A stretch of DNA of 5,590 nt from a bacterium (GTDB lineage Bacteria; Patescibacteriota; WWE3; 2-01-FULL-39-13; JAQBTZ01), in NCBI GenBank assembly GCA_027624675.1, contig JAQBTZ010000043.1, positions 1-5,590 on the forward strand, read 5' to 3'. Shown piece by piece: positions 1,457 to 5,491 of the stretch (the first letter of the stretch is position 1; every line of letters starts with the position of its first letter). Below the pieces are notes generated by a model, which was not told the DNA's origin, did not search any database, and saw only the letters and a list, made by a program, of their open reading frames with translations. A program made the position numbers and the translations under genes.

Positions 1457-2866
1457 TTAAACTTTTCTAACCTTTAACTCTTCCCCATCTAATATTTCGT
1501 ACCCTATATCTTTAATTGTATCTCTAATTTTATCAGCTTCAAGAAAGTCCTTCGATTTTCTGAGCGCCTCCCTCTTTTGTATTAGCTCTGCAACCTTTTC
1601 TGGTAAATCTTCTAATTTTACGTCGTTATTTATTGGACTTAAGCCTAAAATGTTAAATGCAAATGCAACAATTTTTTTCTTTTCATCTATCTTAATATTT
1701 TCATCTTTTATCATATTAAACAAAACTGCCAAAGCTTGTGGAACATTTAGATCATCGTTAAGTTTTTCAAGAAACATCTGCTGATATTTTTCCCAGACAA
1801 CCCCAGGGGTTGTTTCAACAACCCCTGGGGTTGTCAAGATTGTGGAAAGGTTTTGCAACGCAACTGTTGCAGCTTTTAAACCCTCCCAACTAAACTTTAG
1901 TTCAGACCTGTAATGAGCGGAGTAGTAAAAATACCTTAATGCCATAGGTTCAAAACCCTTATCTAAAACTGTTTGCATTGTTATAAAATTGCCTAAGCTT
2001 TTGCTCATCTTTGTTTCATCTACATTTAGCATAGCTCCATGCACCCAGTAGTTTATAAAAGTTTTACCTGTAATACTTTCTGTTTGTGCAAGCTCGTTTT
2101 CATGGTGAATCTCTTTTAAATCATCCCCACCAATGTGAATATCGATAGTGGTGAAATCGGTTGCAGTTAAGCCAACATCAACCCCGAAGGTTGATGTTGG
2201 CTTTGCAAAGGCATTTGTAAGTGATTTCATACTCATTGCAGAACATTCTATATGCCAACCAGGAAAGCCAACTCCCCAAGGGCTATCCCAAGTTTTCTGC
2301 CGTGTTTCGCCACTCTGAACAAATTTCCATAAAGCAAAGTCCTCAACCTGTCTTTTACCTTCAGTTAGCTCTATTCTAGATTGGCCTTTATCCGAGTTAA
2401 AAGTATTGCCAAGCTTTCCATAATCACTATCTTTGCTAGTATCAAAATAAATTCCGTAATCAGTTTTGTAAGTATAACCCTTTTTTTCAAGCTCTAAAAT
2501 AAGAGCAATTTGCTCTGCAATATGTTCTGTTGCATGAGGGTACAAATCCGCACTAATATTAAGCATTGCTAACTGCTCCATGTAAATTTTTTCATATTTT
2601 GAGGTAATTTCATCAACAGTAACACCAAGCTCTGCTGCTCTTTTTTCGATTTTATCCTCTACATCTGTAATATTCATTACAGACTTAACATTATATTTAT
2701 TTGCCTTTAAAACCCGATTTAGCAGATCCATTAATGTTGCTGTACGTAGGTTTCCTATGTGTTGAAAATCGTAAACTGTAGGGCCACAGGTATACATAGT
2801 AACGTTTGATGGGTTAACTGGATTAAATTCTTCGATTTTGCGGGAAAGTGAGTTATATAATTTCAT
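1457..2866 (-). CDS. cysS: Cysteinyl-tRNA synthetase with two in-frame palindrome insertions
   Basis: This cytoplasmic class I synthetase activates cysteine with ATP and attaches it to tRNA-Cys. The 469 residues compare with 461 in E. coli. Visible motifs are the N-terminal CGPTVYDFQHIGN, where HIGN (36-39) is the HIGH-type signature; SPWGVGFPGWHIECSAM; HHENE; and KMSKS (286-290). Zinc ligands correspond to C27, C208, H254 and E258. The C-terminal helical anticodon-binding region ends in a typical RxxKDFxxADxIR segment. C208 and H254 are 46 residues apart against 25 in E. coli, a 21-residue expansion that contains a palindrome (residues 220-236). A second palindrome encodes TTPGVVETTPGVV (residues 345-357) in the variable linker before the anticodon-binding region. 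All catalytic motifs remain, so the enzyme should be active. The ATG at 2866 fits the family N-terminus. It has no Shine-Dalgarno but sits 7 nt from a TATACT box. Confidence 0.97.
   Translation of the reverse strand: MKLYNSLSRKIEEFNPVNPSNVTMYTCGPTVYDFQHIGNLRTATLMDLLNRVLKANKYNVKSVMNITDVEDKIEKRAAELGVTVDEITSKYEKIYMEQLAMLNISADLYPHATEHIAEQIALILELEKKGYTYKTDYGIYFDTSKDSDYGKLGNTFNSDKGQSRIELTEGKRQVEDFALWKFVQSGETRQKTWDSPWGVGFPGWHIECSAMSMKSLTNAFAKPTSTFGVDVGLTATDFTTIDIHIGGDDLKEIHHENELAQTESITGKTFINYWVHGAMLNVDETKMSKSLGNFITMQTVLDKGFEPMALRYFYYSAHYRSELKFSWEGLKAATVALQNLSTILTTPGVVETTPGVVWEKYQQMFLEKLNDDLNVPQALAVLFNMIKDENIKIDEKKKIVAFAFNILGLSPINNDVKLEDLPEKVAELIQKREALRKSKDFLEADKIRDTIKDIGYEILDGEELKVRKV
1796..1835. 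repeat. 40-bp nested palindrome translated inside cysS
   Basis: Perfect 19-bp arms (1796-1814 and 1817-1835) surround a 2-nt TC centre. Each arm is itself a palindrome, CAACCCC-A-GGGGTTG and CAACCCC-T-GGGGTTG, so the unit can form one long hairpin or two small ones. On the minus strand it reads in frame as two heptads, TTPGVVE and TTPGVVW. It is far more GC-rich than the surrounding gene and lies in a variable-length linker of CysRS, which suggests an inserted element rather than conserved protein sequence. Confidence 0.85.
2161..2208. repeat. 15-bp-arm palindrome translated inside the CysRS catalytic core
   Basis: Perfect arms AAGCCAACATCAACC (2169-2183) and GGTTGATGTTGGCTT (2189-2203) flank a CCGAA loop. 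An outer TTGCA/TGCAA pair (2161-2165 and 2204-2208) extends it past a 3-nt bulge. It is read in frame as residues of about 220-236, including AKPTSTFGVDVGLTA. It lies within the 21-residue expansion, relative to E. coli CysRS, between zinc ligands C208 and H254. Confidence 0.85.
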
Positions 2867-2938: not shown

Positions 2939-2983
2939 AGCCGCGAGGCTATGTCAGCCTAACTTTTTCAAAGGAGAAAAAAG
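2939..2983 (+). promoter_or_regulatory. Structured 5' leader with alternative hairpins and Shine-Dalgarno
   Basis: AGCC (2939-2942) can pair with GGCT (2947-2950) around a GCGA tetraloop of GNRA type. The same GGCT can instead take part in AGGCT (2946-2950) pairing with AGCCT (2956-2960) across a 5-nt loop. The two hairpins are mutually exclusive. Downstream, CTTTTT (2963-2968) can pair with AAAAAG (2978-2983), placing the Shine-Dalgarno AAGGAG (2971-2976) in the loop. Stems are short, so any switching role is speculative; the ribosome binding site itself is strong, 7 nt from the ATG. Confidence 0.45.
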
Positions 2984-3112
2984 ATGACTCAGCAGCACAC
3001 TGTATTAGAGTCGGACACGTATGCAGGCTATCAGTACGAAGTTATTGCAATTCCAAGAGAAAGTGCTGATAAACCACCGATTAGGAGACTTGTTCTCTCT
3101 CATTCGGTCTGA
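2984..3112 (+). CDS. Small hypothetical protein, 42 aa
   Basis: I do not recognise this gene. An ATG preceded by AAGGAG at good spacing, a promoter and a structured leader opens 42 codons that end at TGA. The peptide begins MTQQHTVLESDTYAGYQYEV and ends RRLVLSHSV. It is soluble-looking, with no membrane segment, signal peptide or cysteines. The stretch TYAGYQYEVIAI would suit a beta hairpin, and the C-terminal half is proline- and arginine-containing. Codons such as CAG, TCG, GAC and ACG stand out from the AT-biased neighbours, which may mean a different origin. It is divergent from cysS and convergent with recR. It could be a real small protein, a regulatory leader peptide, or the remaining 5' end of a decayed gene. 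Neither other frame continues far past the stop with a recognisable protein. Confidence 0.5.
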   Translation: MTQQHTVLESDTYAGYQYEVIAIPRESADKPPIRRLVLSHSV

Positions 3113-3773: not shown

Positions 3774-5360
3774 TTAATCTTCAAGTAACTTTGCCAAATC
3801 ATCAATATCTATCTCTACATTTTTTACGTTTGCATCGATTAAATCACCTTTATTTTTTAACCCTAAATCTTTCGTAGTCACCTTAATCGCTGTTTTTTCA
3901 CCAATAATACAGGTTATAATGCATTCTCCAATAAATTCGGCCAACACATTTTCAATCACCTGTCTGTTACGAACTGCCTCTATTCTCTCTTTATGAAACG
4001 AATAATACACCTCTAAAATTAAATTGTTTTTATCTATATTAACTGGCTTTGCGTTTTTAATTATAGAAGAAAGTGACGAATTTATACCAGCAACTTTTTC
4101 AGCAATTGTTACCCAGTTGCTAATTAAACTTGAGATTTTTTCGGATTGATCGATTCCTTTAACAGGTGGAATAGCTTTTTGGGAATCTTTCTCTTTAGAC
4201 AAAACAATACTAGACTCAGATCCTGAAACAAGTTCAGGATGACTAGCTTGTTTACTAATTTTTAGATCTTTTTTTTTTGACTCTTCAACTACCTCTACCA
4301 CATCTTCTTTCCCTTTAAGCAAAGTTAAAACTGCAATCTCTAATGGTAACTGCGGAGTAACTGCATACCTAAAATCAAGTTGAGCTTTGGTAAATACGTC
4401 GATTAATTTTATTATATGAGTTTGATTAAGTTTTGATGCAAAAAATTTTAACTTTTCTAATGTTTTTTCTTCATCTGAAACTAAACTTTCTTGACCTACT
4501 GAAACTAATAATATATCTCGGATATAAAACACTAACCCCTCGGTATATACTGGTAAATCCACACCTTTTTCGTATAAATCATTAATCAATATTACTGCCT
4601 TATCTGGTTTCCCCTCAATTAAGCTACTTATCATTTCCTCGTAATTTTGGGTATCGGTACTACCAACTACCTCATCTACTTGTAAATCAGAGGTTACAAC
4701 CTGTTCTAATAAGGTAACTGCATCTCGAAAACCGCCTTTACTTGCCTTTGCTATTTTTACTAAATCATCTTTTTCTATTTTAAATTGTTCTTGCTTGGCA
4801 ATAGAATCTAAAACAGTAACAATATCATCCATTTTTGCCCTTGAAAATTCTAAAACCTGGCAACGAGACTTTACCGTCTCTGGAATTTTATGCGCATCAG
4901 TAGTTGCTAATATAAAGATTGAATGTGCTGGTGGCTCTTCTAATGTCTTTAACAGTGCATTAAACGCCTCTGTTGTTAACATGTGTACCTCGTCAATTAT
5001 ATATACCTTATATTTGCTGTTATATGGAGCAAGCTTTACTCCCTCGCGTAGTAACCTAACATCATCTATCCCTCGGTTACTAGCTGCATCTAGCTCGATT
5101 AGATCAATGAAAGAACCATTATTTATTGATTTACAAGATTCACACTTATTGCATGGCTCGCCGTTTTTACCTGGCTTTTCACAGTTAATTGCTTTTGCAA
5201 AAAGACGGGCTAAAGTTGTTTTTCCAGTACCCCTTGGGCCAATAAAAAGGTAAGCATGAGCAAAAGTATTATTAACAATTTGGCTTAAAATTGATGATTT
5301 AATATTACCAATGCCAACTAACCCTTCAAAATTTTGTGGACGATATTTTCTGTAGAACAT
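3774..5360 (-). CDS. dnaX: DNA polymerase III subunit gamma/tau (clamp-loader ATPase)
   Basis: DnaX is the AAA+ motor of the clamp loader; it opens and loads the sliding clamp on primed DNA, and its long form tethers the polymerase. The 528 residues fit the shorter bacterial DnaX proteins. Visible features are the opening MFYRKYRPQNFEGLVG; Walker A GPRGTGKT (41-48); a zinc module C60, C70, C73, C76; Walker B VYIIDEVHM (119-127); sensor 1 ATTDAHK (152-158); SRC arginine finger (165-167); and GGFRDAVTLLEQ (209-220). The collar domain runs to about residue 350. A charged linker (about 350-415) follows, then a C-terminal domain. The linker contains a run of ten A at codons 361-364 and the palindrome-encoded HPELVSGS (374-381). 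The ATG sits directly at the conserved N-terminus, lacks a Shine-Dalgarno and lies 7 nt from a TATACT box. It heads the dnaX-recR unit. Confidence 0.97.
   Translation of the reverse strand: MFYRKYRPQNFEGLVGIGNIKSSILSQIVNNTFAHAYLFIGPRGTGKTTLARLFAKAINCEKPGKNGEPCNKCESCKSINNGSFIDLIELDAASNRGIDDVRLLREGVKLAPYNSKYKVYIIDEVHMLTTEAFNALLKTLEEPPAHSIFILATTDAHKIPETVKSRCQVLEFSRAKMDDIVTVLDSIAKQEQFKIEKDDLVKIAKASKGGFRDAVTLLEQVVTSDLQVDEVVGSTDTQNYEEMISSLIEGKPDKAVILINDLYEKGVDLPVYTEGLVFYIRDILLVSVGQESLVSDEEKTLEKLKFFASKLNQTHIIKLIDVFTKAQLDFRYAVTPQLPLEIAVLTLLKGKEDVVEVVEESKKKDLKISKQASHPELVSGSESSIVLSKEKDSQKAIPPVKGIDQSEKISSLISNWVTIAEKVAGINSSLSSIIKNAKPVNIDKNNLILEVYYSFHKERIEAVRNRQVIENVLAEFIGECIITCIIGEKTAIKVTTKDLGLKNKGDLIDANVKNVEIDIDDLAKLLED
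4209..4247. repeat. HPELVSGS-type palindrome in the dnaX linker
   Basis: ATCCTGAA (4220-4227) and TTCAGGAT (4233-4240) form 8-bp arms around ACAAG. Outer CTAG copies at 4210-4213 and 4243-4246 could extend pairing past mismatches. In frame on the minus strand it encodes SHPELVSGSES. I know this DNA (CATCCTGAACTTGTTTCAGG) and its peptide HPELVSGS as a recurrent palindromic repeat in many bacterial genomes; recognition is from memory, not a search. Confidence 0.75.
4269..4278 (-). other. Slippery A10 tract in dnaX (candidate gamma-forming slippage site)
   Basis: The minus strand reads TCA AAA AAA AAA GAT: ten consecutive A across codons 361-364, just after the clamp-loader core. Loss of one base, or a +1 shift, reads K-I then TAA. 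Gain of one base, or a -1 shift, reads R-S-K-N then TAG. Either event therefore truncates DnaX at about 365-368 residues, leaving domains I-III. Thermus thermophilus dnaX makes gamma by transcriptional slippage on a similar A run, and E. coli uses ribosomal -1 frameshifting at a comparable place. That it works here is inference. Confidence 0.65.
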
Positions 5361-5457: not shown

Positions 5458-5491
5458 ACTTCCGGGATGTTAGTCCTAACATCCCGGAAGT
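5458..5491. repeat. 34-bp intergenic palindrome
   Basis: Perfect 16-bp arms ACTTCCGGGATGTTAG (5458-5473) and CTAACATCCCGGAAGT (5476-5491) surround a 2-nt TC centre, the same centre as the 40-bp palindrome in cysS. It is GC-rich in an AT-rich gap between the divergent dnaX promoter and the plus-strand promoter at 5510. There is no T-run on either side, so it does not look like an intrinsic terminator. Confidence 0.8.

Follow-up and report, generated by a model that had tools for sequence, protein, structure and literature searches.

According to Di Nocera 2013 (PMC3733652) and Corneloup 2021 (PMC8266576), the hairpins of REP/RAYT systems (REPtrons) are short and occur singly or as inverted dimers; many copies are intergenic and near 3' ends, the RAYT gene is flanked by them and some copies are intragenic. 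Di Nocera 2013 (PMC3733652) places REPs inside genes, tRNA synthetase genes included, and section 15 of that paper describes two Xanthomonas recB genes with REPs at about the same site. Rickettsia palindromic elements (RPEs) lie in frame inside unrelated genes and measured ∼150 bp as first reported (PMC10969869), and RPE-4 and RPE-6 are CGTC-tagged while some RPE types are shorter REPs (PMC3733652). In-frame REPs are already known, from Di Nocera 2013 and from the Rickettsia RPEs.

The palindromes described here share the listed features of REPtrons, but differ from these in the missing foot tag, in their occurrence at 18 places only, in RAYTs that score below the NCBIfam cut-off, in a Patescibacteria-like host and in a single CysRS linker that is hit by unrelated palindromes of three genomes. 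None of GTAG, GTGG or CGTC was found at the hairpin foot in any of 15 copies (both ends, from 6 bases outside to 2 inside), and therefore the family does not belong among the GTAG/CGTC REPs. With RPEs it shares in-frame palindromes in unrelated genes (here cysS, argS and, twice, an ORF on contig C25), whereas the size of 35-45 bp, the absence of CGTC, the other host and a core beside a RAYT gene set it apart, as judged by the descriptions. The original prediction had drawn the RPE parallel but no match, which agrees with these differences in size, host and CGTC, and the name Rickettsia palindromic element was not adopted.

The window, the whole stretch of 5,590 nucleotides that was analyzed, is contig C38 of the genome of an uncultured bacterium, with 725,728 bases in 126 contigs. 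The features of its cysS gene are as follows.

1457..2866, minus strand: cysS, an ORF of 469 amino acids (PF01406, 7e-96) with both palindromes, F1 and F2, in frame
2169..2203: F1 hairpin, perfect 15-bp arms at 2169-2183 and 2189-2203, loop of 5
2161..2208: outer pairs of F1, TTGCA at 2161-2165 and TGCAA at 2204-2208, read directly from the sequence
1796..1835: F2 palindrome with 19-bp perfect arms, coding for TTPGVVETTPGVV, CysRS residues 345-357

The perfect 15-bp inverted repeat with outer 5-bp pairs, which the original prediction had placed in the cysS frame, was confirmed. F1 is translated as KPTSTFGVDVGL, corresponding to CysRS residues K222-L233 (codons 2168-2203), and KPTSTFGVDVGLTATD is the predicted peptide stretch tied to the translation of the cysS palindrome. 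The window contains three hairpins with arms of at least 15 bp (15, 16 and 19), whereas 60 first-order Markov replicas of the window yielded two hairpins with arms of at least 12 and none of at least 15. Contigs C1-C20 (213,917 bases) contained nine such hairpins, compared to one and none in two Markov replicas. The core pattern CAACCN{3,7}GGTTG was found at 21 places in the genome and its reversed control at none. That F1 is a chance palindrome within ordinary loop sequence would be consistent with the wide variation of the F1 loop in close relatives, but both controls argue against it and the dispersed copies already refute it, so that this explanation retains next to no probability.

Indeed, the cysS palindrome is one place of a dispersed, genome-specific hairpin family. 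An alignment (A2) was built from 15 of the 21 core places; the three F2 hairpins were left out, as were C30, C47 and C126c, which seemed to be chance or degenerate matches. In A2 the arms are variable, but hardly any change is seen in the core TCAACC..CGGGGTTGA. When a covariance model derived from A2 was used to score 150 of 381 first-look candidates, it identified 18 distinct places with E<0.01, namely the 15 training rows and C4, C15 and C88, and recognized F1 as a family member at 9.1e-14. BLAST and the covariance model recovered further copies in the host genome, as expected for the palindromic element that had been proposed, and the palindrome is no single occurrence. Stretches of 25 to 45 bp are nearly identical between unrelated loci by BLAST, and part of the F1 flank is common to the C44 copy (45 bp, 98%). 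In 56 relatives the model gave two weak matches. The exact F1 arms had one match in genome_contigs, in Polaromonas, in a collection from which records of the host genome itself were possibly excluded, and none in viral_contigs. Arm pairing is kept in 80.4% of the cells of A2 and the covariation score was reached by 1 of 500 shuffles, while the numbers of pairs with both partners changed and of additional pair types did not rise above shuffles (411/500 and 369/500).

Several copies lie at gene ends: the C44 copy between two convergent stops, the C15 copy at distances of 7 and 13 bp from a pair of convergent gene ends, and the C5 copy overlapping a stop. This position, together with the A and T runs of the palindrome of a relative (G009, see below), which resemble a two-way terminator, would fit a selected role as RNA, with the hairpins acting as terminators or mRNA-stability elements and the coding copies as attenuators. 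A known structured RNA was rejected as the identity of the element, since the window had no match to Rfam at gathering scores, and F1 has no T run. Moreover, such a role is not needed for the mid-gene copies in essential genes, which always use one frame, and it is considered highly improbable.

The effect on the protein was studied by comparison with CysRS homologs. The spacing between HIECSAMS and DIH is 29 residues in the window, compared to 8 in 65 and 21 in 16 of 96 anchored homologs (121 examined); it is 8 in the alignment of 1li5, which we take to be E. coli CysRS, and 21 and 20 in P0005 and P0006, respectively. The predicted 21-residue expansion thus has the right size (29 versus 8), but only 8 net residues accompany the palindrome: since outgroups without palindrome already have a spacing of 21, the excess consists of 13 older and 8 palindrome-associated residues. 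In an alignment (A1) of the window and 19 of 120 listed homologs, the peptide KPTST.GVDVGL is carried by P0001 (93%), P0002 (81%) and P0008 (80% over 87%). At the F1 site the form of P0003 is degenerate, and P0004 (77%) and P0007 (71%) have different, longer loops. The F1 peptide is absent from P0005 (76%), P0006 (73%) and the 11 most distant A1 rows, so that the segment is not conserved across distant CysRS. The source names of the homologs include Levybacteria, Pacebacteria, Kerfeldbacteria and Patescibacteria group, and by these names the host probably belongs to the Patescibacteria.

The catalytic motifs are intact, as had been stated: HIGN (36-39), KMSKS (286-290), C27, C208, H254/H255 and E258, the zinc binders presumably being among the last four. 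The CysRS model had a mean pLDDT of 87.3, with residues 217-234 in neither helix nor strand and a pLDDT of 54 for block 221-230. Translation of the cysS palindrome is predicted to give a loop, possibly exposed at the surface as originally proposed, which would be tolerated by the enzyme. A structure search returned only CysRS and other synthetases and has no bearing on the palindrome.

F2, missing from the original prediction, is longer than F1 and lies in the same gene. It consists of two inverted hairpins with cores at 1798-1812 and 1819-1833, the same core as that of F1, and would represent a dimer in which one hairpin is followed by its inverted counterpart. In the CysRS model it falls in the linker between helices 327-345 and 356-370. 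Among the A1 rows only the window and P0001 carry F2, and the spacing at this site is 50, compared to a value of 47 that five of the seven close relatives share, a net gain of 3.

The host genome contains five Y1_Tnp genes, all above the cut-off of Pfam (PF01797). For all five the best transposase model was NCBIfam REP_Tyr_transpos (NF047646), yet with 34-42 bits versus a cut-off of 80, and they had no match to other transposase models. One of them is flanked by the family core.

C31:4942-5658, minus strand: C31 RAYT gene, Y1_Tnp, with the HYH (HUH) and RYI..N motifs present

The core hairpin occurs 23 bp past the stop and 47 bp ahead of the ATG of this gene, in the same orientation. At C31 only the family core is present, without the full F1 arms. 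When aligned as direct repeats, these flanks score 28.5, compared to at most 14 in 500 shuffles. The chance of two such flanks is estimated as 5 x (60 x 21/725,728)^2, ∼1.5e-5, where the 60-bp limit was chosen after the distances were known. The other four RAYT genes lack this hairpin family. In IS200/IS605 elements and their small derivatives a Y1 HUH transposase gene lies between two hairpins of the same orientation; the C31 gene is arranged alike, but its unit was seen in a single copy. A GGCAGATTGG hairpin adjoining the C31 RAYT gene was rejected as its REP, because it occurs at a single place in the genome. As a separate observation, an unrelated double hairpin, ACAGGACAGTCCTGT / ACAGGACTGTCCTGT, with a build like that of F2 lies just ahead of the RAYT gene on C55 (L039 1262-1294).

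Since motif-based finding of the cysS ORF missed 25 of 53 loci, a census of 53 cysS loci from 52 relatives relied on a listing of every palindrome at each locus. At two of the 53 loci, in G009 and G014, cysS itself contains a perfect palindrome, both times at the F2 linker. In G009, a relative at class level, a 27-bp palindrome, GGGACTACCCCGAATCGGGGTAGTCCC, occurs at 11 places (control 0), perhaps representing 10 loci because two of them have common flanks, and one copy lies in cysS. Copies of it flank a RAYT gene (Y1_Tnp 8e-9), 30 bp upstream and 6 bp downstream, and it is also present in a pseudouridine synthase gene and a PMT_2 gene, in each case read as QKGTTPNRGSPF. At L140 and other loci it is bordered by the terminator-like A and T runs, yet copies lie within genes. 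G015, from the genus of G009, was considered as a source of the exact empty site that would match the cysS palindrome of G009, but was rejected, as it is too diverged (linker of 61 versus 57 residues). G014 carries a double hairpin, GGGGCAGTGCCCC / GGGGCACTGCCCC, in 16 units at nine sites, five of which are in recognized genes (topA twice, a YchF-type GTPase gene twice, and cysS). The two topA copies, at L141 679-707 and 1363-1391, lie in one topoisomerase I gene. No RAYT-like ORF was found within the G014 stretches examined. The host genome (G000), G009 and G014 belong to three different families of one class and carry unrelated palindromes at the same CysRS linker.

Within longer genes of the host genome, seven family or F2 hairpins were found at six sites in four ORFs: cysS (two sites), argS, a 595-aa ORF on C25 (two sites) and a 548-codon ORF on C126. 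All seven share one frame, though two of the three frames of F1 are open whichever its orientation. The in-frame family copies in genes account for 4 of the 18 places (cysS, argS and the C25 ORF twice), all in the PTSTxxVDV frame. This frame is also used by C126b, inside a 104-codon open frame without Pfam match, while C5 and C6, each located where an open frame ends, are in a different frame. The C25 and C126 ORFs had no Pfam match; the former has four relatives, one of which shows KPTSTSKVDVGF at the aligned place.

At the argS site F1 is present in the host gene and in P0122, and F2 in P0123-P0126 (81%), with TPxV aligned, also in P0129 and P0130. The spacing is 32 with F1 and 30 with F2 compared to 29-35 in most rows without palindrome, a net change of about 0. 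At three sites the net gain in length falls short of the size of the element (cysS F1 +8, cysS F2 +3, argS about 0), and therefore the lengths do not establish a clean insertion there; earlier codons may have been overwritten or may have disappeared afterwards. Neither a transposition event nor a duplicated target or an exact empty site was seen in the DNA. A second argS palindrome, GGTCAGACC..GGTCTGACC (L004 319-351, C43), also occurs twice on C9, giving three places in total; as an insertion it was rejected, because no gap is seen versus P0122.

Template switching in the course of replication could also build hairpins and perfect them on the spot, free of a transposase, with the cores passed on by rare copying between sites. 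Such a process would leave length hardly altered, as observed at the argS and cysS F2 sites, could account for F1 and F2 alternating at one argS site among relatives, and would fit arms that vary among copies but are still largely paired. It does not readily explain 25 to 45 bp that are almost unchanged at unrelated loci, a RAYT gene flanked on both sides here (by the core) and in G009 (by another palindrome), or the same units recurring at 11 places in G009 and 16 times in G014. Template switching is therefore regarded as unlikely.

Instead, the palindrome probably belongs to a REP-like family that is likely spread by a RAYT-type (Y1, HUH) transposase, and that is predicted to survive in cysS as a tolerated loop. 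The link to RAYT is drawn from the core at C31 and from the clean case of G009, and from these sequences we infer that the hairpins may be cleaved and mobilized by RAYT. By analogy with TnpA_REP and the IS200 enzymes, the transposase would recognize the folded hairpin on one DNA strand and would insert copies at scattered positions. Selection would remove any copy whose frame is closed or that falls within a folded core, and would leave those in loops, in linkers between domains and at gene ends. For the cysS copy, survival is predicted on the ground that its contribution is a short loop in an open frame, which the enzyme would tolerate.

More tentatively, it is conceivable, though somewhat doubtful, that across the class genome-specific RAYT palindromes repeatedly rewrite the same inter-domain linkers (CysRS, ArgRS, TopA, YchF), partly overwriting codons, so that unrelated parasites converge. 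If true, unrelated DNA parasites would meet at the same protein site in small-genome bacteria. The cysS palindrome would also unite RAYT-linked repeats, usually termed extragenic, with palindromes inside proteins, which are best known from Rickettsia. Because one CysRS linker is hit by another palindrome family in each of three genomes of the class, plain comparison can address whether essential enzymes regularly gain new linker sequence from mobile hairpins, and whether these are inserted or replace what was there. Within the literature searched, nothing on point was returned for REPs or RAYTs in this host group; within these limits the host group and the recurrence of palindromes at one CysRS linker are new.

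Some further features were observed in the window. In dnaX (minus strand) a palindrome-like repeat at 4218-4241 is read as HPELVSGS; it occurs at three places in the genome when up to three mismatches are allowed, and the peptide had no match in a literature search. Between cysS and recR, a stretch at ∼2941-3111 has no plus-strand ORF of at least 60 aa, though it resembles the start of a short gene (AAAGGAGAAAAAAGATG). Past dnaX, an intergenic perfect palindrome with arms of 16 (ACTTCCGGGATGTTAG) is located at 5458-5491.
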